64,000 nucleotides of DNA from Pedococcus sp. 5OH_020 (lineage in GTDB: Bacteria; Actinomycetota; Actinomycetes; Actinomycetales; Dermatophilaceae): NCBI RefSeq assembly GCF_027812955.1, contig NZ_JAPYZV010000006.1, positions 186,001 to 250,000 on the forward strand, in the 5' to 3' direction. The notes below the pieces were generated by a model. It was not told where the DNA came from. It saw only the letters and a program-made list of their open reading frames with translations, and made no database searches. This document shows, one piece after another, positions 28,372-45,310 of the stretch; positions within the stretch are counted from its first letter, which is position 1, and each line of letters starts with the position of its first letter. Made by a program: the position numbers and the translations under genes.

Positions 28372-28398
28372 GTGGCACGAATTCTCGTACTTCCCTAG
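28372..28398 (+). CDS. ilvB operon leader peptide MARILVLP
   Basis: An 8-codon open frame, GTG start and TAG stop, encoding M-A-R-I-L-V-L-P: one Ile, two Leu and one Val codon in a row of four. It begins 6 nt after the -10 box and ends inside the first arm of a hairpin. Streptomyces and Corynebacterium ilvB operons are known to have similar leader peptides; the R-I-L-V-L wording is like the Streptomyces type. Stalling of the ribosome at these codons would signal branched-chain amino acid starvation. Confidence 0.8.
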   Translation: MARILVLP

Positions 28399-28467
28399 CG
28401 CGCAGGCTCTCCCCAGAGCCAGCGCGCTGCCCTCCGTCGTCCCGGCCCGGGACTGGAGGGTTTTTTT
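28397..28467 (+). terminator. ilvB transcription attenuator (pause hairpin plus terminator)
   Basis: First hairpin: 14-bp arms 28397-28410 and 28415-28428 with one A-A mismatch and a 4-nt loop, starting in the leader stop codon. Second hairpin: CCCTCC (28430-28435) with GGAGGG (28455-28460) and an inner GTCCCG/CGGGAC stem, followed by seven T (28461-28467). This is the only long perfect T-run seen in the window and makes a classical intrinsic terminator 40 nt before ilvB. Confidence 0.85.
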
Positions 28468-28507
28468 GTGGCCAGACACCAGCGAGAACCGAAAGCGGTA
28501 GACGACA

Positions 28508-30391
28508 GTGAGCGACGCGAAACCGGGACCGACGCCGGCGCCCAGTCCCAGCCAGATGGCCCAGCAGGCCCGAGCCAAGGCTCCGGCGGGGGTCACGGGC
28601 GCCCAGAGCCTCGTGCTGGCCCTCGAGGCCATGGACGTCGACACCGTCTTCGGCATCCCCGGTGGCGCGATCCTGCCCGCGTACGACCCGTTGCTCGACT
28701 CCGTGAAGGTGCGCCACATCCTCGTACGCCACGAGCAGGGTGCCGGCCACGCGGCCGAGGGCTACGCCAGCGCCACCGGCAAGGTGGGCGTCTGTATGGC
28801 GACGTCCGGGCCGGGGGCGACCAACCTCGTCACGGCGATCGCCGACGCCTACATGGACTCCGTGCCGATCGTCGCCATCACGGGCCAGGTCAGCTCCGCC
28901 GCCATCGGCACGGACGCCTTCCAGGAGGCGGACATCCGCGGCATCACCATGCCGATCACCAAGCACAACTACCTCGTCACCGACGCCTCCCAGATCCCGC
29001 GCGTCGTGGCGGAGGCCTTCCACATCGCCTCCACGGGACGGCCGGGGCCGGTCCTGGTGGACATCTCCAAGGACGCACTGCAGGCCCGGACCACCTTCTC
29101 CTGGCCACCGAAGTTCGACCTGCCGGGCTACCGCCCGGTCGCGCGCCCCCACAACAAGCAGATCCGCGAGGCGGCGCGGCTCATCGCGCAGGCCCGCCGA
29201 CCGGTGTTCTACGTCGGCGGGGGAGTCATCCGTGCCGGCGCGTCACAGGCCCTGCGCGAGTTCGTGGACCTCACCCAGATCCCCGTCGTCACGACCCTGA
29301 TGGCCCGGGGCGCGGTGCCGGACAGCCATCCGCTGCACCTCGGCATGCCCGGGATGCACGGCTCGGTCGCGGCCGTGACGGCCCTGCAGAAGGCCGACCT
29401 GCTGATCACCCTGGGCGCTCGCTTCGACGACCGGGTGACCGGTCAGCTGTCGACCTTCGCCCCGGAGGCGAAGGTCATCCACGCCGACGTCGACCCCGCT
29501 GAGATCTCCAAGAACCGCACGGCCGACGTTCCGATCGTCGGCGACGTCCTGGACGTCATCCAGGAGCTGAAGGGCGCGGTGGCTGCGGACCAGGCAGCCG
29601 GTCATTCGGGGGACTACGGGGCCTGGCAGGACCTGACGGCAGGATGGAAGTCGACGTTCCCCCTCGGGTACTCCACGCCCGAGGGTGGGGACACGGTCGC
29701 GCCGCAGCACGTCATCGAGCGCATCGGCGCCATCAGCGGTCCGGAGTCGGTGTACGTGGCAGGGGTGGGGCAGCACCAGATGTGGGCGGCGCAGTTCGTC
29801 CAGTACGAGCGTCCCAACGCCTGGCTTAACTCGGGGGGTCTGGGCACCATGGGGTATGCCGTGCCCGCCGCCATGGGCGCCAAGGTCGCCCAACCCGACC
29901 GCACGGTGTGGGCCATCGACGGGGACGGCTGCTTCCAGATGACCAACCAGGAGCTGGCGACCTGTGTCATCAACAACATCCCGATCAAGGTCGCGATCAT
30001 CAACAACAGCAGTCTCGGCATGGTGAGGCAGTGGCAGTCGCTCTTCTACAACGAGCGCTACTCGAACACCGACCTGCACACCTCGGTAGGCTCCCGGATC
30101 CCTGACTTCGTCAAGCTGGCAGAGGCGTACGGCTGCGTGGGGCTGCGGTGTGAACGACCGGAGGACGTCGACGCCACGATCAAGAAGGCCATGGAGATCA
30201 ACGACGTCCCGGTGGTCGTCGACTTCGTCGTCCATCGGGACGCCATGGTGTGGCCGATGGTCCCCGCGGGCGTGAGCAACGACGCGATCCAGGTGGCCAA
30301 GGACACCGCGCCACAGTGGGACCGCGAGGACGACGAGGCGGACGAGCAGGGTGTGGTCGACCAGCTCGAGGCCGGCCGGGAGGGGAGGTAG
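28508..30391 (+). CDS. ilvB: acetolactate synthase large subunit
   Basis: A 627-aa thiamine-diphosphate enzyme that makes acetolactate from pyruvate (valine/leucine) and acetohydroxybutyrate (isoleucine). [13 protein letters not shown] holds the catalytic Glu, [14 protein letters not shown] the N-terminal signature, and [14 protein letters not shown] the TPP/Mg motif. The C-terminal ~25 residues are very acidic. The GTG start at 28508 is 40 nt after the attenuator. ilvN follows after 5 nt and ilvC after a further 88 nt. Confidence 0.96.
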
Positions 30392-36909: not shown

Positions 36910-38433
36910 ATGAGCGTTCCTCCAGACACGTCCACCATCGACGACGACGCCGCACGACTGGCGGAGCTCGGCTACAAGCAGGAGCTCCACCGTGGGATGA
37001 GCGGCTTCTCCAACTTCGCCGTCTCGTTCTCGATCATCTCCATCCTGGCCGGCTGCATCACGACGTACTACCTGGCCATGGATGCCGGAGGACCCGTGGC
37101 CATCACCATCGGGTGGCCGCTGGTCGGCGTCTTCGTCCTGTGCGTGGCGCTGGCCATGGCGGAGATCTGCTCGGCGTACCCGACCGCCGGTGGGCTGTAC
37201 TTCTGGGCCGGCCGGCTGGCCCGCACCAACAAGCGGGCCTGGGCCTGGTATGTCGGGTGGTTCAACTTCCTCGGCGAGGTGGCCGTCACCGCGGCGATCG
37301 ACTACGGCGCCGCCATCACCTGGACGGCCCTGCTCAACCTCGTCTTCGGGGCGCCCGTCTCCGCCACCTCGACCTTCGTCGCGTTCCTGGTGATCATCGT
37401 GCTGCACGGGCTGCTGAACACCTTCGGCGTCAACCTGGTCAGGCTGCTCTCCAACGTGAGCGCGTGGTGGCACCTGGCCGGCGTCGCCATCATCGTGGCG
37501 GTGCTGGCCTTCGTCCCGGACCGCCACCAGTCCCTGTCCTGGACGTTCACCGAGTTCCGCAACCAGACGGGGTTCAGCAACGGGCTCTACGCCTTCCTGA
37601 TCGGCCTGCTCATGGCGCAGTACACCTACACCGGGTACGACGCCTCGGCCCACGTCGCCGAGGAGACCAAGAGTGCGGCCACCGAGGCGCCGAAGGGCAT
37701 CGTCCGCAGCGTCTGGGTCTCGATCGTGGCGGGCTGGGTCCTGCTCATCGCGGTGACAGCGTCGATCCAGAACTATGCCGCCGAACGCACCTCCGAGACC
37801 GGCCTGCCGCCGGCGCAGATCTTCATCGACGCGGCGGGCGCCACCCTCGGCAAGCTGCTGCTGTTCATCTGCGCCGTGGCCCAGTTCTTCTGCGGGATGG
37901 CGTCCGTGACGGCGAACTCCCGGATGTCGTACGCCTTCTCCCGTGACAACGCGCTGCCGGGCTCCCAGCTGTGGTCGAAGGTGAACCCGCGCAGCGGCAC
38001 GCCGACAAACTCGATCTGGCTGTGTGTGGCGGGGTCCATCGTCCTGACCCTTCCGGCGCTCAAGAGCCTGACCGCCTACTTCGCCGTCACCTCCATCGCC
38101 GTGATCGGCCTCTACATCGCGTACGCCGCCCCGGTGCTCCTACGGCGGGTCAACCCGGACTTCCGGGAGGGCCCCTGGTCGCTGGGCCGGTGGAGCCCGG
38201 TGATCGGGTGGGTCGCCGTGGTGTGGGTGGGCTTCATCGTCATCCTCTTCATGCTTCCGCAGTACGCACCCGGGACGTTGGGCGACAGCACCTTCAACTA
38301 CGCCCCCGTCGCGGTGGTCGTGGTGTTCGCCTTCGCCACCGTGTCGTGGCTGGTGGGGGGCCGCCACCACTTCATGCGCGACGTGCCAGAGGGCCACGAC
38401 ACCAAGCCGGCCCGTGAGCTGCTGCGTGACTGA
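36910..38433 (+). CDS. APC-family amino acid/amine permease
   Basis: A 507-aa inner-membrane transporter with about 12 membrane segments. GYKQELHRGMSGFSNFAVSF at the N-terminus is typical of the APC subgroup that includes GABA, choline and ethanolamine permeases; AEICSAYPTAGGLYFWAG follows. It heads a cluster for gamma-glutamylation of an amine, so it should import that amine (ethanolamine, putrescine or similar; inference). GAGGTG precedes the ATG. Confidence 0.88.
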   Translation: MSVPPDTSTIDDDAARLAELGYKQELHRGMSGFSNFAVSFSIISILAGCITTYYLAMDAGGPVAITIGWPLVGVFVLCVALAMAEICSAYPTAGGLYFWAGRLARTNKRAWAWYVGWFNFLGEVAVTAAIDYGAAITWTALLNLVFGAPVSATSTFVAFLVIIVLHGLLNTFGVNLVRLLSNVSAWWHLAGVAIIVAVLAFVPDRHQSLSWTFTEFRNQTGFSNGLYAFLIGLLMAQYTYTGYDASAHVAEETKSAATEAPKGIVRSVWVSIVAGWVLLIAVTASIQNYAAERTSETGLPPAQIFIDAAGATLGKLLLFICAVAQFFCGMASVTANSRMSYAFSRDNALPGSQLWSKVNPRSGTPTNSIWLCVAGSIVLTLPALKSLTAYFAVTSIAVIGLYIAYAAPVLLRRVNPDFREGPWSLGRWSPVIGWVAVVWVGFIVILFMLPQYAPGTLGDSTFNYAPVAVVVVFAFATVSWLVGGRHHFMRDVPEGHDTKPARELLRD

Positions 38434-38437
38434 GGCC

Positions 38438-39166
38438 ATGTCGCCCCTGCATGAGCGGCGGCTCCCGGACGCGGTGCTGCGACCTGCCGCCGTGAACGCG
38501 TTCGAGTCGACGGTGGAGCAGCTCGCCACCGCGGTCCGGCTGGGGGTCTTCGCCCACGGCGAGCAGCTGCCGCCGGAGCGCGAGCTCGCCGAGCGGCTGG
38601 GCGTCAGCCGGGTGACGCTGCGAGAGGCCATCGCGGCCCTGCGCGACAGCGGGCTGGTGACGACGACGCGCGGGCGCGGCGGGGGCACGGTCGTCGTCTA
38701 CCGCGGGCCTGACCTGCCCCGGGACTCCGAGCCCGTTGCCGGACGCCGCGGTGCCGACCTGTCCGACGCGCTGGAGTTCCGGCGCGTGGTCGAGCCGGGC
38801 GCGGCCGCCCTGGCGGCGCGCCGGTCGCTGTCGGCAGACCAGCGGTCCTGGCTGGCGCAGGCCTGCCAGGAGGTCCGCGACGCGCCGGACTCCAAGGGCC
38901 ACCGCGTCGCGGACTCCCGGCTGCACCTGGCCGTCGCCACGCTGTCGGGGTCACCGATGCTCATCGAGGCGGTCACGCGGGCGCAGGCCGCCCTGCACGA
39001 GCTGCTCACTGCCATCCCGGTGCTGCCGACCAACATCGCCCACTCCAGCGCCCAGCACGACTGCATCGTCACCGCCATCCTCGCCGGGGACGCCGACGCC
39101 GCCCGGACCGCGATGGAGGAACACTGCGACGCCACGGCCGCCCTGCTGCGAGGACTGCTCGGATGA
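38438..39166 (+). CDS. GntR-family regulator, FCD type
   Basis: A 242-aa regulator with a winged helix (LPPERELAERLGVSRVTLREA, split as QLPPERELAERL and GVSRVTLREAI, ~residues 40-65) and a C-terminal all-helical FCD ligand domain with His/Asp metal-binding residues (SRLHLAV, HDCIVTAI). The ATG is 4 nt after the permease stop; GTG codons at 38414 and 38426 are alternatives. It probably controls the cluster through the palindrome at 36795. Confidence 0.82.
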   Translation: MSPLHERRLPDAVLRPAAVNAFESTVEQLATAVRLGVFAHGEQLPPERELAERLGVSRVTLREAIAALRDSGLVTTTRGRGGGTVVVYRGPDLPRDSEPVAGRRGADLSDALEFRRVVEPGAAALAARRSLSADQRSWLAQACQEVRDAPDSKGHRVADSRLHLAVATLSGSPMLIEAVTRAQAALHELLTAIPVLPTNIAHSSAQHDCIVTAILAGDADAARTAMEEHCDATAALLRGLLG

Positions 39167-39182
39167 CCAACCAGGAGAACAC

Positions 39183-40550
39183 ATGACGACCCCACCTCGG
39201 CTCACGGTGGAGCAGCTGCGCGCGGACATCTCCTCGGGTGCCGTGGACACCGTCGTCGTGGCCTTCACCGACATGCAGGGCCGGCTCCAAGGCAAGCGGA
39301 TCCACGGCCAGTTCTTCCTCGACAGCGTGCTCCGCCATGGGACCGAGGGCTGCAACTACCTGCTCGCTGTCGATGTCGACATGAACACGGTCGACGGGTA
39401 CGCGATCAGCTCGTGGGAGCGCGGCTACGGGGACATGATGTTCGACCTCGACCTCACCACCCTGCGTCGTACGCCGGGCCAGCCGTACTCCGCCACCGTG
39501 CAGTGCGACCTGTCGTGGCTCGACGGCAGCGGCCCCGTGCGGCCGTCACCCCGCTCCGTCCTCAAGGCGCAGGTCGACGCCGCCGCTGAGCTCGGCTTCG
39601 TGGCGCTGGCCGGGACGGAGCTGGAGTTCATCGTGTTCGAGGAGTCCTACGAGCAGGCCTGGGACCGCCGGTACCACGGACTGGTCGGTGCGAACCGGTA
39701 CAACGTCGACTACTCGATCCTGGGCGGCACGAAGGTGGAGCCGCTGCTGCGCGACATCCGCAACCAGATGTATGCCGGCGGCGTCACGGTGGAGTCGGCG
39801 AAGGGGGAGTGCAACCTCGGCCAGCATGAGATCGCCTTCCTGTACGACACCGTCGTGCGGACCTGCGACAACCACGTCGTGTACAAGAACGCCGCCAAGG
39901 AGATCGCCGCCACCCACGGGCAGTCGCTGACGTTCATGGCGAAGTTCGACGAGCGTGAGGGCAACTCGTGCCACATCCACCTGTCGCTGCGGGGAGGCGA
40001 CGGTGAGGCGGTCTTCGCGGACGACTCGCGGGAGGGCGGTCGCAGTGCGCTGTTCGAGCACTTCGTGGCAGGCGTCCAGGCAACCCTGCGCGAGTTCACC
40101 CTCCTCTACGCGCCGAACGTCAACTCCTACAAGCGGTTCCAGCCCGGCTCCTTCGCCCCCACCGCCGTCGCGTGGGGTACCGACAACCGCACCTGCGCCT
40201 TGCGGGTGGTCGGCCACGGCGCCGGGCTCAGGGTCGAGAACCGGGTCCCGGGAGGCGACGTGAACCCCTACCTCGCGGTCGCGGGGATGCTCGCCGGTGG
40301 GCTGCACGGCATCAGGCAGGAGCTGCCGCTGGAGCCCGCGTTCACCGGTAACGCCTACGCCTCGGACAAGGCGCGCGTCCCGGCGCTCCTGAGCCAAGGG
40401 CGTGACCTCTTCGCAGGCTCGGCCATCGCCCGCCACTGCTTCGGGGACGACGTCGTCGACCACTACGTCCACGCCGCCCAGGTCGAGCTCGACGCGTTCA
40501 GCTCGGCGGTCACCGACTGGGAGCGGATCAGGGGGTTCGAGAGGCTATGA
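39183..40550 (+). CDS. glutamine-synthetase-like gamma-glutamyl-amine ligase
   Basis: A 455-aa member of the glutamine synthetase superfamily that is not a housekeeping GlnA: it is short, lacks the adenylylation Tyr region and sits in a catabolic cluster. ELEFIVFE, KGECNLGQHEIAF and EGNSCHIHLSL carry the metal and ATP ligands, and ENRVPGGDVNPYLA the glutamate site. Such enzymes (PuuA, GlnA3, GlnA4, IpuC) join glutamate to the amino group of an amine. AGGAG is 5 nt before the ATG; the stop overlaps the aldehyde dehydrogenase start. Confidence 0.88.
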   Translation: MTTPPRLTVEQLRADISSGAVDTVVVAFTDMQGRLQGKRIHGQFFLDSVLRHGTEGCNYLLAVDVDMNTVDGYAISSWERGYGDMMFDLDLTTLRRTPGQPYSATVQCDLSWLDGSGPVRPSPRSVLKAQVDAAAELGFVALAGTELEFIVFEESYEQAWDRRYHGLVGANRYNVDYSILGGTKVEPLLRDIRNQMYAGGVTVESAKGECNLGQHEIAFLYDTVVRTCDNHVVYKNAAKEIAATHGQSLTFMAKFDEREGNSCHIHLSLRGGDGEAVFADDSREGGRSALFEHFVAGVQATLREFTLLYAPNVNSYKRFQPGSFAPTAVAWGTDNRTCALRVVGHGAGLRVENRVPGGDVNPYLAVAGMLAGGLHGIRQELPLEPAFTGNAYASDKARVPALLSQGRDLFAGSAIARHCFGDDVVDHYVHAAQVELDAFSSAVTDWERIRGFERL

Positions 40551-41920
40551 CCGTCCACGACGTTCTGAACCCGGCGACCGAGCAGGTCGTCACCACGGTG
40601 CCGCTCGCCGGCCTCGACCAGGCCGACGCAGCCATCGCGGCCGCGGAGTCGGCCGGTCCCGCCTGGCGCGCGGTCACACCGGCCGACCGAGGGCTGCTGC
40701 TGCGACGGTTCGCCGAACAGGTCGACTCACATTCCGAGGAGCTGGCCCAGCTCGAGGTGGCGAACGCCGGACACACCATCGGCAACGCCCGCTGGGAGGC
40801 GGGGAACGTCCGGGACGTGCTGACGTACTACTCGGCCGCCCCTGAGCGGCTGTTCGGCCGGCAGATCCCGGTCGCCGGAGGAATCGACGTGACGTTCAAG
40901 GAGCCCTTGGGGACGGTCGGCGTCATCGTCCCCTGGAACTTCCCGATGCCCATCGCGGCATGGGGCTTCGCGCCCGCCCTGGCGGCCGGGAACACGGTCG
41001 TGCTCAAGCCCGCCGAGCTCACGCCGCTCACGGCGATCCGGCTGGGGGAGCTGGCCCTTGACGCCGGCCTGCCCGAGGGCGTCTTCACCGTGGTGCCGGG
41101 GCGGGGCTCCGTGGTGGGCGAGCGGTTCGTCACCCATCCGGCGGTGCGGAAGGTGTGCTTCACGGGGTCGACCGCGGTCGGCCAGCGCATCATGCGGGGA
41201 GCGGCCGACCAGGTGAAGCGCGTGACCCTCGAGCTCGGTGGCAAGAGTGCCAACCTCGTGTTCGAGGACAGTGACCTCGAGCGTGCCGCCGCGACCGCGC
41301 CGTACGGCGTGTTCGACAACGCCGGTCAGGACTGCTGCGCGCGAAGCCGGATCCTGGTGCAGCGCAGCGTCTTCGACCGCTTCATGGAGCTCTTCGAGCC
41401 GGCCGTCAAGAACGTCGTCGTGGCGGACCCGGCAGCCGAGTCGACGGAGATGGGGCCGCTCATCAGCGATGCCCAGCGGCAGGCGGTGCGCTCGTACGTC
41501 GAGGACGCGCAGGAGCCTGTCGAGGTCGCCTTCCGAGGCCAGGCACCCCAGGGAGACGGGTACTGGTACCCCGCGACCGTCGTCCTTCCCGGCTCGACCA
41601 GCGACCGCGTCTGGCAGGAGGAGGTGTTCGGGCCCGTCGTGGCCGTCATGCCGTTCGAGGACGAGGCCGACGCAGTGGCCAAGGCCAACGACACGGCGTA
41701 CGGGCTGTCAGGCTCCATCTGGACCCGCGACGTCGGCCGTGCGATGCGGGTGGCCCGCGCTGTGGAGGCCGGCAACCTCTCGGTCAACTCGCACAGCAGC
41801 GTCCGCTACTCCACTCCCTTCGGCGGCTTCAAGCACTCCGGTCTCGGCCGGGAGCTCGGGCCTGACGCGCTCGACGCCTTCAGCGAGCTCAAGAACGTCT
41901 TCATCTCCACGGACTCCTGA
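40547..41920 (+). CDS. aldehyde dehydrogenase (gamma-glutamyl-aldehyde type)
   Basis: A 457-aa NAD(P)-dependent dehydrogenase. PWNFPMPIAAW, VTLELGGKSANLVF (catalytic Glu) and FDNAGQDCCARSR (catalytic Cys, here a Cys-Cys pair) are the class signatures. It overlaps the ligase stop by ATGA. In the Puu-like pathway it oxidises the gamma-glutamyl-amino-aldehyde to the acid (PuuC role). Confidence 0.88.
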   Translation: MTVHDVLNPATEQVVTTVPLAGLDQADAAIAAAESAGPAWRAVTPADRGLLLRRFAEQVDSHSEELAQLEVANAGHTIGNARWEAGNVRDVLTYYSAAPERLFGRQIPVAGGIDVTFKEPLGTVGVIVPWNFPMPIAAWGFAPALAAGNTVVLKPAELTPLTAIRLGELALDAGLPEGVFTVVPGRGSVVGERFVTHPAVRKVCFTGSTAVGQRIMRGAADQVKRVTLELGGKSANLVFEDSDLERAAATAPYGVFDNAGQDCCARSRILVQRSVFDRFMELFEPAVKNVVVADPAAESTEMGPLISDAQRQAVRSYVEDAQEPVEVAFRGQAPQGDGYWYPATVVLPGSTSDRVWQEEVFGPVVAVMPFEDEADAVAKANDTAYGLSGSIWTRDVGRAMRVARAVEAGNLSVNSHSSVRYSTPFGGFKHSGLGRELGPDALDAFSELKNVFISTDS

Positions 41921-41932
41921 GAGGACCACACC

Positions 41933-42700
41933 ATGGCAGGCAGGCTCGACGGCAGGGTTGCCGTCGTCACGGGCGGCTGCAGCGGCATCGGTCTGGCGAC
42001 CGTGCGCCGGTTCGCCGAGGAAGGCGCGAGCGTCGTCGTCGGCGATCTCGACGACGAGTCCGGCGAGACTGTGGCGAAGGAGGTCGACGGTGCGTACGTG
42101 CACTGTGACGTTACCGACGCCGGACAGGTGGAGGCGCTCTTCGCCGCGGCGAAGGAACGGTTCGGCTCGGTGGACGTGGCGTTCAACAATGCCGGGATCT
42201 CACCGCCGGAGGACGACTCCATCCTGACAACGGACCTCGGCGCCTGGCGCCGGGTCCAGGAGGTCAACCTCACCAGCGTGTACCTCTGCTGCAAGGCTGC
42301 GCTGCCCTACATGCTGGAGCAGAAGCGCGGGTCGATCATCAACACGGCCTCGTTCGTGGCCGTCATGGGCGCGGCCACGAGCCAGATCTCGTACACCGCC
42401 AGCAAGGGTGGGGTGCTGTCGATGTCGCGCGAGCTGGGAGTGCAGTTCGCGCGTGAGGGCATACGCGTCAACGCGCTCTGTCCGGGTCCGGTCAACACGC
42501 CGCTGCTGCGGGAGCTGTTCGCCAAGGACCCGGAGCGGGCGGCCCGGCGGCTCGTGCACATCCCGCTCGGGAGGTTCGCCGAGCCGGAGGAGATCGCCAA
42601 CGCGGTGCTCTTCCTGGCCAGCGACGAGTCCAGCTTCATCACCGCCTCGCAGTTCCTCGTCGACGGGGGAATCGCGGGCGCCTACGTCACGCCCCTCTGA
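41933..42700 (+). CDS. short-chain dehydrogenase/reductase
   Basis: A 255-aa classical SDR. TGGCSGIGLA is the NAD loop, NNAGISPPE follows, Ser-Tyr-Lys catalytic residues are in INTASFVAV and SYTASKGGV, and the Asp at the end of the second strand (VVGDLDD) suggests NAD preference. It lies between the aldehyde dehydrogenase and the hydrolase, where Puu-type clusters would have an amine oxidase. Oxidation of a gamma-glutamyl-amino-alcohol is the simplest role (inference). Confidence 0.85.
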   Translation: MAGRLDGRVAVVTGGCSGIGLATVRRFAEEGASVVVGDLDDESGETVAKEVDGAYVHCDVTDAGQVEALFAAAKERFGSVDVAFNNAGISPPEDDSILTTDLGAWRRVQEVNLTSVYLCCKAALPYMLEQKRGSIINTASFVAVMGAATSQISYTASKGGVLSMSRELGVQFAREGIRVNALCPGPVNTPLLRELFAKDPERAARRLVHIPLGRFAEPEEIANAVLFLASDESSFITASQFLVDGGIAGAYVTPL

Positions 42701-43473
42701 TGGCGACGGCTCGGATGGACTCCGCTGCGATGGACTCCGCTGCGATGGACTCCGCTCGCATGGTCAGGGCCCGGCCTGTCATCGGGATCACCTGCTACGT
42801 CGAGCCGGCGTCGCGAGGCGACTGGACCGACGTGCCGAGCTCCGTGCTGCCGCAGGCCTACGTCACCAAGGTCGAGGAGGCCGGCGGCCTCGCCGTGATC
42901 ATCCCGCCGAGGGCCGACGCCGACGAGGAGCTCGCGACGCAGGTCCTGTCCCGTCTCGACGGGCTCGTCATCGCTGGAGGCCCCGACATCGACCCCGACC
43001 GGTACTCGCAGGCACGCCACCCACACGCGCAGGACCACCGAGCGGACCGCGACGACATGGAGCTCGCCCTGGCGACCGCCGCGGCGGCCACGGACACGCC
43101 GCTGCTCGGCATCTGCCGTGGCATGCAGGTCATGGCGGTCGCCGCCGGGGGCACCCTGGAGCAGCACGTGCCTGACCGCGTCGGCCATGTCGACCACTCT
43201 CCGGCCCTGGCGGTCTACGGTCGGCACCCGGTCCGGACGGTCCCCGGAACCAGCCTCGGCCGGCTGCTGGGTCGGCAGACCGCGGTGCCGTCGTACCACC
43301 ACCAGTCCGTCCTGACCCACCCTGGCTTCGTGCCGGCGGCCTGGGCCGAAGACGGGACGCTCGAGGCGATGGAGGATCCGAACGCAAGGTTCAGGGTCGG
43401 GGTGCAGTGGCATCCGGAGGAGGGCGACGACCCGCGCCTCTTCGAGGCGCTCGTGAGCGCTGCTGCGTCCTGA
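42700..43473 (+). CDS. gamma-glutamyl-amide hydrolase (peptidase C26, PuuD-like)
   Basis: A 257-aa class I glutamine-amidotransferase-like hydrolase. The nucleophile is in GICRGMQVMAVA (~residue 148), the His-x-Glu pair in VQWHPEEGDD. It releases glutamate from the oxidised gamma-glutamyl product. The ATG overlaps the SDR stop. Residues 6-20 are three repeats of MDSA(A/R), encoded by three 15-bp DNA repeats (42715-42759), so there are five in-frame ATG codons (42700, 42715, 42730, 42745, 42760); the last is the one nearest the conserved domain and could be the true start. Confidence 0.85.
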   Translation: MATARMDSAAMDSAAMDSARMVRARPVIGITCYVEPASRGDWTDVPSSVLPQAYVTKVEEAGGLAVIIPPRADADEELATQVLSRLDGLVIAGGPDIDPDRYSQARHPHAQDHRADRDDMELALATAAAATDTPLLGICRGMQVMAVAAGGTLEQHVPDRVGHVDHSPALAVYGRHPVRTVPGTSLGRLLGRQTAVPSYHHQSVLTHPGFVPAAWAEDGTLEAMEDPNARFRVGVQWHPEEGDDPRLFEALVSAAAS

Positions 43474-43542
43474 CCACCATGCGGACCGTGGCTTGGGTGG
43501 CGACGTGAGCCGTGGGACAGTGAGCCCGTGACATCCTGGCAC

Positions 43543-43572
43543 ATGGCTACCACCATGGTGATTATCGACTAG
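43543..43572 (+). CDS. cimA leader peptide MATTMVIID
   Basis: A 9-codon frame ATG to TAG encoding M-A-T-T-M-V-I-I-D, with Val-Ile-Ile codons just before the end. CATCCT (43532-43537) lies 5 nt upstream as a possible -10 box. It is followed directly by two hairpins and a U-tract, and the downstream gene makes an isoleucine precursor, so the codons fit sensing of isoleucine/valine. Confidence 0.75.
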   Translation: MATTMVIID

Positions 43573-43628
43573 CGCGACGAGACCTCCTCGTCGCGCAGAC
43601 CTCCCGCACCCGGGGGGTCTTTTGCTTT
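43572..43628 (+). terminator. cimA transcription attenuator
   Basis: Hairpin 1: GCGCGACGAG (43572-43581) with CTCGTCGCGC (43587-43596), a perfect 10-bp stem starting at the leader stop codon. Hairpin 2: AGACCTCCC (43597-43605) with GGGGGGTCT (43612-43620), one G-U pair, then TTTTGCTTT. The octamer AGACCTCC also occurs at 43580-43587 inside hairpin 1, so two upstream strands could compete for the GGGGGGTCT arm. The remaining ~100 nt up to cimA hold no gene. Confidence 0.8.
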
Positions 43629-43729
43629 GTACGGCAACGGTGCCGGCCACACCCCGGCAGGTACCGAGCGACAGGGAGACCGCACCACCAGGACCGGCAA
43701 GACGACGCTGAGCTGACGGGAAGACCGCG

Positions 43730-45310
43730 ATGAGCGACCTGCAGGTATACGACACGACCCTGCGCGACGGCGCGCAGCAGGAGGGCCTGAACCTCTCGGT
43801 GTCCGACAAGCTCGCCATTGCCTCACACCTGGACGAGCTCGGCGTCGGCTTCATCGAGGGCGGCTGGCCGGGCGCGAACCCCAAGGACACCGAGTTCTTC
43901 GCCCGTGCCCGGACCGAGCTGCGGCTGCATAACGCGACCCTGGCCGCGTTCGGCGCCACGAGGCGGGTCGGCGGCCGCGCAGCCGACGACCCGCTCGTGC
44001 GCGCGCTGGTGGACTCCGGCGCCTCGGTGGTGACCCTCGTGGCGAAGTCCCACGTCCGCCACGTCGAGTCGGCGCTGCGGACCACGCTCGAGGAGAACCT
44101 CGAGATGGTCCGGGACACGGTGTCGTTCCTGCGGGGTGAGGGCCGGCGGGTCTTCCTCGACGCCGAGCACTTCTTCGACGGGTATGCCGCGGACCGCGGC
44201 TACGCGCTGGAGGTCGTGCGCGTCGCGATGGAGTCGGGGGCCGAAGTGGTGGCCCTGTGCGACACCAACGGAGGAATGCTGCCGAACCAGGTCGCGGACG
44301 TCGTCGCCGACGCCGTGGCCGCGACCTCCGCCCGACTCGGCATCCACTGCCACAACGACACGGGGTGCGCCGTGGCCAACTCCATGGCAGCGGTCGACGC
44401 CGGGGCCACGCACGTCCAGGGGACCATCAACGGGTACGGCGAGCGGACCGGCAACGCGGACCTCCTCACGGTGGTGAGCAACCTGCAGATCAAGCGCGGG
44501 CTTCCCCTCCTGGAGACCGACCGGCTGCGTGAGGCGACGAGGATCGCGCACTCGATCAGCGAGATCACCAACGTGCCGCCCTACTCCCGCCAGCCGTACG
44601 TGGGTGCCAGCGCGTTCGCGCACAAGGCCGGCCTGCATGCCAGCGCCATCCGCGTCGACCCGGACCTGTACCAGCACACCGACCCCCAGCACGTCGGCAA
44701 CGACATGCGCATGCTCGTCTCGGACATGGCGGGGCGAGCCAGCATCGAGCTGAAGGGGCGCGAGCTCGGGTACGACCTGTCGGGCAACGACGTGCTGCTG
44801 AGCCGGGTGCTCGCCAAGGTCAAGGAGCTGGAGCTGCGCGGCTACACGTTCGACGCGGCCGACGCCTCCTTCGAGCTCCTGCTGCGCCGTGAGGTGGAGG
44901 ACGACAGCTACACGTTCTTCGAGGTGGAGTCCTGGCGCGTCATCACCGATGCCCGCGGCGACGAGAGTGCGCTGTCCGAGGCGACGGTCAAGGTGGTCGC
45001 CGGGGGCGAGAGGGTCGTGGCGACCGGGGAGGGCAACGGCCCGGTCAACGCGCTCGACCACGCGCTGCGGCGCGCCCTGGCACCTGCCTACCCCGAGCTG
45101 GACAAGCTCGAGCTCATCGACTTCCGCGTGCGCATCCTGGACGCGGCGCACGGCACCGACGCAGTCACCCGGGTTCTCATCGAGACCTCCGACGGCGAGA
45201 CGTCCTGGGAGACCATCGGCGTCGCCGGCAATATCGTCGAGGCCTCCTGGCACGCCCTCGTGGAGGGCGTGACCTACGGCCTGGTCCGGGCCGGCGTACC
45301 CGTCCGCTGA
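43730..45310 (+). CDS. cimA: citramalate synthase
   Basis: A 526-aa DRE-TIM metallolyase that condenses pyruvate and acetyl-CoA to (R)-citramalate, opening a threonine-independent route to isoleucine. [17 protein letters not shown] is the family start, [13 protein letters not shown] holds the metal His residues and [16 protein letters not shown] follows; the C-terminal LeuA allosteric domain (~390-526) allows isoleucine feedback. The wording fits CimA rather than LeuA or homocitrate synthase. The ATG has a weak GGGAAG upstream. It is convergent with argG. Confidence 0.93.

Follow-up and report, generated by a model that had tools for sequence, protein, structure and literature searches.

A predicted isoleucine-reading leader-peptide attenuator before the citramalate synthase gene cimA of an actinobacterium

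The citramalate synthase gene cimA is preceded, in the 64,000-nucleotide stretch of DNA analyzed here (the window), by a short open reading frame (ORF) and two hairpins that probably act together as a leader-peptide attenuator reading isoleucine supply. An earlier note on this DNA had proposed an isoleucine-sensing attenuator, and this core claim is strongly supported: the Ile-codon frame is conserved, the hairpins covary, and the codons match the downstream gene. The cimA leader itself is a real observation, confirmed far above chance. Its transcription start and its translation, like ribosome stalling and the polarity of the switch, are inferred from the analogy to ilvB leaders. Leaders of this kind are already known in actinobacteria; cimA is a new predicted target, so that the actinobacterial genes with predicted leader-peptide control now include the one that opens the pyruvate route to isoleucine.

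Anatomy of the cimA Leader

All features described here lie on the forward (+) strand of the window. The leader ORF, in its favored reading, runs from GTG to TAG over 14 codons (43528..43572) and encodes the peptide MTSWHMATTMVIID. A −10-like hexamer, GACAGT (43517..43522), is found 6 nt 5′ of GTG 43528, the predicted leaderless start. The putative regulatory codons are ATT ATC (Ile-Ile; 43561..43566), with GTG (Val; 43558–43560) directly before them. The first hairpin, H1 (43572..43596), identified by covariation and geometry, is formed by the arms GCGCGACGAG (43572–43581) and CTCGTCGCGC (43587–43596); it is the perfect 10-bp hairpin that the earlier note had placed on the stop codon, and it begins on the G of TAG. 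The second, H2 (43597..43623), also supported by covariation, follows H1 at 0 nt and is a predicted intrinsic terminator consisting of AGACCTCCC..GGGGGGTCT, then the U tract (TTTT, 43620–43623), then GCTTT. From the end of H2 to cimA (43730..45310) there are 106 nt, in agreement with the terminator and T run previously placed about 100 nt before the gene, and the identity proposed for that gene is upheld by a score of 631.5 bits against TIGR00977 (cut-off 450). Two hallmarks of an attenuator are therefore found in cimA leaders, i.e., a short ORF with codons for the operon’s amino acid and, by sequence and covariation, a predicted intrinsic terminator between ORF and gene. A further hairpin, H0 (43542..43557), for which there is also covariation, lies within the leader ORF just 5′ of the Val-Ile-Ile codons.

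Several observations concern the surroundings of the leader. The interval between the terminator and cimA contains GCCGGCCACACCCCGGC (43642–43658), and the motif CAC[AC]{0,3}CCC occurs in this interval at 30 of 41 family loci, counting near-identical relatives, versus 6.7 expected from shuffling, possibly as a second control site. In one relative (L052), about four tandem copies of a ~21-base unit are seen by eye in the same interval. The genes upstream of cimA (window 38414–43473) appear to encode a GntR-like regulator, a glutamine-synthetase-like protein, an aldehyde dehydrogenase, and a short-chain dehydrogenase, and resemble a polyamine-breakdown cluster; the last of them matches gamma-glutamyl-GABA hydrolase below the cut-off (83.5 versus 266 bits). 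Elsewhere, the genome encodes a threonine deaminase (TIGR01127, above cut-off; G000:C11:220412-221548), so both routes to 2-ketobutyrate are present and cimA is not the sole one.

The Start of the Leader ORF

The earlier note read the leader as the nine-codon peptide MATTMVIID, from ATG 43543 GCT ACC ACC ATG GTG ATT ATC GAC to TAG 43572. The Val-Ile-Ile codons can be read directly and stand; the length and the ATG start probably do not. The frame can be extended without interruption to GTG 43528, 15 nt upstream of ATG 43543. Relatives keep a GTG or ATG at the upstream position, 6–7 nt after a −10-like hexamer, and several of them vary at the downstream one, where GTG, CTG, or another codon is found. 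Thus, the true start is most likely GTG 43528, which gives the peptide named above. A weak hexamer, CATCCT, lies 5 nt before ATG 43543; this ATG is an alternative start that we do not favor, and it is an internal codon in the favored reading.

The same signal recurs across the cimA-labelled leaders, a set that in this count and in those of geometry, sequestration, H0, and loop pairing below includes two leuA leaders (L156, L219). A hexamer is found 5–8 nt before an in-frame start in 72 of these 82 leaders, compared with 6/82 and 8/82 in the other two frames, the control frames being read over 75 nt and the true frame to the next in-frame stop, at most ~90 nt. The spacing is 6 or 7 nt in 68 of the 72, a pattern that reads as the sequence signature of a leaderless ORF. 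In this test, the start picked automatically is an implausible inner one in some rows (e.g., L081, L110), and for the window it is ATG 43543.

Conservation and Covariation of the Leader

We sought cimA in 11 genomes of the genus, 59 of the family, and a GTDB collection, and scanned the DNA upstream of 88 cimA loci (39 + 49). Family matches without a locus were left out of the scan, as were 31 of the 80 GTDB-collection loci, those of lower identity (L113–L143), so that 49 were covered. The layout, i.e., Ile codons, a stop or a run-on into H1, H1 itself, H2, and a T tract, is kept at 72 of the 88 loci, with a conserved GCGC/GCGC base in H1. The element is absent at the other 16 (L075, L076, L079, L080, L084–L087, L089, L091, L093–L096, L098, L100), and at least seven of these (L075, L076, L079, L080, L091, L093, L094) have a cimA that, by eye, nearly abuts the upstream frame.

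Both hairpins covary. In alignment A1, which holds 67 distinct leaders (five identical ones of the 72 were omitted), H1 and H2 together show 97.3% standard pairs, and 10 of their 17 pairs have changes on both sides. Taken singly, 97.0% of cells are paired in H1 (double changes in 5/9 pairs) and 97.6% in H2 (5/8 pairs). The two hairpins have 88 double-change cells versus 28.5 in shuffles, and sliding the partners out of register lowers pairing to 39–62%. The earlier note’s expectation of a short Ile-codon frame and covarying hairpins in the upstream regions of related cimA genes is thus borne out. Searching Rfam at the gathering score, with the T-box included, returned two tRNAs only in the window, no hit even close to that score in the leader region, and no match in 20 relatives.

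H0 is mainly a feature of the host’s bacterial family. Its cells are paired at 83.2%, with 29 double-change cells versus 10.3 shuffled, and it reaches z < −1.5 in 21/37 family leaders, 5/45 other cimA-labelled leaders, and 3/47 ilvB leaders. In the family leaders (alignment A3), the loop reads NACC, and two of the five covariation measures show no clear excess over shuffles. A covarying inverted repeat near the start invites the idea that a DNA- or RNA-binding protein regulates the gene from H0 or H1, the ORF being secondary. However, H0 is rare in other lineages that keep the ORF, H1, and H2, and a protein site needs no codons matching the pathway, so we regard regulation by such a protein as very unlikely.

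One Leader Type before Several Genes

The element is not confined to cimA; judged by sequence, the same architecture is found at ilvB, in this window, and at leuA and leuB. A covariance model built on cimA leaders, Ile codons included (R1), gave two matches in the host’s own genome at E ≤ 10, with 150 of 9577 first-look candidates scored: the cimA leader (E 4.2e-22) and an ilvB leader (E 1.5e-5). In the window, the latter match spans 28380–28472 (E 2.1e-07) and ends 35 nt before ilvB, which encodes the large subunit of acetolactate synthase (28508..30391). The ilvB leader ORF (28372..28398) encodes MARILVLP and reads GTG 28372 GCA CGA ATT CTC GTA CTT CCC TAG, its stop falling on the first base of H1; H1 and the terminator occupy 28398..28472. 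A −10-like GAGAGT is found six nt before its GTG.

Across 296 genomes of the phylum, R1 at E ≤ 0.01 gave at least 77 matches in at least 68 genomes, a lower bound because 15 candidates per genome were scored under strict filters; among these candidates, no match was seen in 228 of the 296. The nearest downstream gene is a branched-chain amino acid (BCAA) gene in 66 of the 77, namely ilvB in 46, cimA in 15, leuA in three, and leuB in two. The other 11 precede prephenate dehydratase (L162), isocitrate lyase twice (L191, L221), glnA (L209), and a RibD_C protein (L216), or have no gene assigned (L176, which is near the end of its contig, and L198, L202, L212, L217, and L218); several weak matches outside BCAA genes are probably due to chance. 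The isocitrate lyase matches (L191:1601-1685, L221:1601-1674) are weaker and come from different genomes, the former with a frame reading FVAIA before TAG.

The codons in the frame follow the gene. Two or more consecutive Ile codons stand before the stop or H1 in 77 of 80 cimA leaders (exceptions L051, L056, L078; the leuA leaders L156 and L219 are not part of this n), in 0/47 ilvB leaders, and in 2/2 leuB leaders, counts that represent related sequences rather than independent events. Leu-Leu-Leu is found in all three leuA leaders and also in 2/47 ilvB leaders, and LV, VL, or VV in 46/47 ilvB leaders, which have a Leu/Val/Ile mix. In six genomes, both leaders were seen, and these combine Ile-Ile before cimA with an I/L/V mix before ilvB. 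For all genes alike, the leader frame was taken to be the one whose final codons held the most I/L/V, and the ilvB and leuA leaders were recovered although R1 was built on Ile-codon cimA leaders. The fit between codons and pathway, another part of the original proposal, is thereby supported. LeuB serves the leucine route as well as the citramalate route, so Ile codons before its gene make sense; the two leuB (3-isopropylmalate dehydrogenase) leaders observed (L179:1601-1681 and L203:1601-1682) read VIII and VVII, which suggests that leuB is under isoleucine control in some lineages. It appears that one leader design has been re-used across the BCAA pathway, with the codons swapped for each branch. 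Since the codons swap with the downstream gene, there is natural evidence that codon identity matters.

These comparisons also bear on the simplest alternative, in which the two hairpins serve solely to terminate the upstream operon and the ORF is fortuitous. The element does lie between two genes that run in the same direction. However, the same layout recurs before ilvB, leuA, leuB, and cimA, its codons track the gene downstream, and a promoter-like signal separates the upstream gene from the element, all of which make this the least probable of the alternatives weighed here, and scarcely credible.

Geometry of the Ribosome and the Hairpins

The geometry could be resolved for 122 of 130 leaders. 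The last BCAA codon begins 8 nt before H1 in 59/81 cimA-labelled and 30/40 ilvB leaders, and this spacing holds wherever the stop is, whether it overlaps H1 by one base (51/81) or lies 10–16 nt inside (23/81). In E. coli, the front edge of the ribosome is 15 nt past the first base of the P-site codon; computed from this assumed edge, a ribosome at the last BCAA codon covers ~5 bases of H1. Residual H1 is below −3 kcal/mol in 78/81 cimA-labelled leaders when the A site holds the last BCAA codon, and in 13/81 when it holds the stop. For the window, the H1 energy is −18.9 kcal/mol free, −14.8 and −4.5 kcal/mol at the two Ile codons, and 0 kcal/mol at the stop. The linker between H1 and H2 is 0 nt in 69/81 cimA-labelled leaders and ≤2 nt in 80/81. 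The ilvB leaders obey this rule less strictly: H1 is below −3 kcal/mol in 39/40 at the last BCAA codon and in 24/40 at the stop, i.e., less fully masked there, and linkers are 0–5 nt.

A conventional relay was sought in transcripts truncated ahead of the terminator’s 3′ arm, by scoring sequestration of its 5′ arm. The E. coli controls were recovered: trpL scored 0.06 when the stop occupied the A site and 0.36 and 0.69 at its two Trp codons, and thrL scored 0.27 at the stop, 0.61 unbound, and 0.99–1.0 at seven of the eight sense codons tried, the last giving 0.35. The medians for the 81 cimA-labelled leaders were 0.18 with no ribosome, 0.01 and 0.10 with one at either of the last two BCAA codons, and 0.32 with one at the stop; sequestration exceeded 0.5 in 6, 4, 10, and 24 of them, respectively. 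For the 40 ilvB leaders, the corresponding medians were 0.24, 0.28, 0.37, and 0.43, a slight rise. In the 81 cimA-labelled leaders, this test found no antiterminator that replaces H2 on stalling; as modelled, the leaders lack the classical trp-type 2:3 antiterminator, and the sign of the change is opposite to the classical case. A second calculation, an equilibrium fold with the ribosome footprint masked, was discarded. Nearly every leader keeps its terminator formed, with clear exceptions in L039, L045, and L099 and partial ones in L082 and L097, and the fold is without power because E. coli trpL and thrL behave alike in it.

Covariation points the same way as the truncated transcripts. In the search for alternative helices, no H1 column was paired with an H2 column among the 40 top covarying pairs. 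Those that pair well over distance are H1, H2, and their extensions (29-65, 85-94), and two other pairs at a distance, 17-96 and 29-113, touch neighboring columns.

Proposed Mechanism and Alternatives

The regulation we propose, in which the supply of charged isoleucine tRNA is the signal, would run as follows. (i) Start: transcription would begin at GTG 43528 or immediately beside it, with a ribosome translating the leaderless ORF. (ii) Isoleucine ample: the ribosome would pass ATT ATC, reach TAG, and cover the whole 5′ arm of H1; H2 would then form, and transcription would end before cimA. (iii) Isoleucine short: the ribosome would halt at ATT or ATC, its front edge reaching only the base of H1, so that H1, or its upper part, could form against H2; termination would drop and cimA would be transcribed. 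Given such starvation-on polarity, H1 is the proposed read-through (ON) structure, because a stalled ribosome largely leaves it and a terminating one removes it. A helix that directly abuts the base of H2 might hinder the closing of H2 inside the polymerase. H1 and H2 share no bases, and this hindrance by adjacency is the weakest step, which we hold to be possible, with our judgment leaning against it. Its extension to a modular attenuator used throughout the phylum, with the codon run swapped for each gene and an ON-structure that acts by standing against the terminator, is tentative and in our view rather doubtful.

A different route to read-through would be a decoy in the loop, whereby the opened loop of H1 (AGACCTCC) pairs with the 3′ arm of H2, GGGGGGTCT; in the window, nine contiguous pairs can form if G-U is allowed. 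The earlier note had already seen that the octamer occurs twice (43580–43587 and 43597–43604) and offers two partners for the terminator arm. The repeat is indeed present in the window, but it is not generally conserved, being exact in 3/36 distinct family leaders. The looser complementarity between the interior of H1 and the terminator 3′ arm has a longest run of 7.0 on average in the family versus 5.0 shuffled, and p < 0.05 is reached in 15/36 family leaders, which are related and hence not independent, as opposed to 0/45 other cimA-labelled and 3/40 ilvB leaders. Since the enrichment is limited to the family, a second pairing partner is at best a local refinement, and the octamer repeat is rejected as a general switch. 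Moreover, the U tract would still follow directly on the alternative hairpin, and the covariation analysis above gave no link between H1 and H2 columns. A similar loop pairing has been modelled for the Corynebacterium ilvB-II motif (in the extracts of PMC10272879). On balance, we consider the loop decoy unlikely.

Alternatively, H1 could be a pause hairpin that holds RNA polymerase for the ribosome, the switch itself residing in some other pairing or in coupling. The near-constant position of H1 and its short gap to H2 would suit a pause ahead of synthesis of the H2 3′ arm; a pause alone, however, is no switch, and neither covariation nor the truncated transcripts yielded a conserved alternative pairing. 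We regard a pausing role of this kind as distinctly improbable. With no classical antiterminator found, the means by which these leaders would avoid termination can be put to a direct test, and the leader may matter for engineering isoleucine supply in actinobacteria.

Comparison with Known Systems

The literature was consulted partly in extracts, and statements on individual papers refer to these. Seliverstov et al. (2005; PMC1262725) described trp, cys, ilvB, leuS, leuA, and ileS elements in Actinobacteria and, in the extracted text, reported no conserved structures before genes of other amino acid pathways; cimA does not occur in that text. Similarly, the extracts of PMC8079986 list S. lividans leader peptides, one of which is the leaderless ilvL MRTRILVLGKRVG, with no occurrence of cimA or citramalate. 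Citramalate is also absent from the extracts of PMC4833913, PMC2965389, and PMC8269248, and no cimA leader was seen in titles or abstracts among the matches listed for the open-access literature. Thus, cimA as a target and the phylum-wide, gene-by-gene swap of codons appear undescribed in the papers searched, which treat ilvB. According to the extracts of PMC1262725, altering codons of the ilvB leader in S. coelicolor was without effect, and the codon swap reported here bears on the point that these negative results left open.

Compared with E. coli, the cimA leaders resemble the trp and thr attenuators in having regulatory codons, a terminator, and, as proposed, the ribosome as sensor. Unlike trpL and thrL, which sequester the 5′ arm of the terminator on stalling, they do not do so on the whole. 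In M. tuberculosis, attenuation at ilvB1 has been examined experimentally (PMC13236596, in extracts): a ribosome at the stop was proposed to mask an anti-terminator, and changing LVVI to AAAA in a reporter gave low expression regardless of inhibitor dose. The cimA leader likewise places BCAA codons ahead of a structure open to masking by a ribosome at the stop. By contrast, the ilvB1 codons are LVVI, and its terminator and anti-terminator are described as mutually exclusive, whereas the cimA stems share no base.

The ilvB-II motif of Corynebacterium, as given in the extracts of PMC10272879, consists of a stem P1 with an upstream ORF (uORF) and a terminator stem P2 with a U run; in the model, pairing is possible between the P1 loop and the right shoulder of P2. 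The cimA leader also has a uORF-linked stem followed by a terminator stem with a U run. A counterpart of the loop pairing is enriched in the 36 family leaders, but not in the 45 other cimA-labelled ones. Unlike the ilvB-II uORF, which spans most of P1, the cimA ORF overlaps H1 by one base in the window, and the window element precedes cimA instead of ilvB.

The closest relatives are the actinobacterial ilvB leaders, which, in the extracts of PMC1262725 and PMC8079986, have a short ORF with BCAA codons (leaderless in S. lividans) and then a terminator. R1 finds ilvB leaders of this architecture, four of which carry the peptide MRTRILVLGKRVG, identical to S. lividans ilvL. The window leader shares this plan; it differs in that it precedes cimA and presents Ile-Ile rather than an I/L/V mix.
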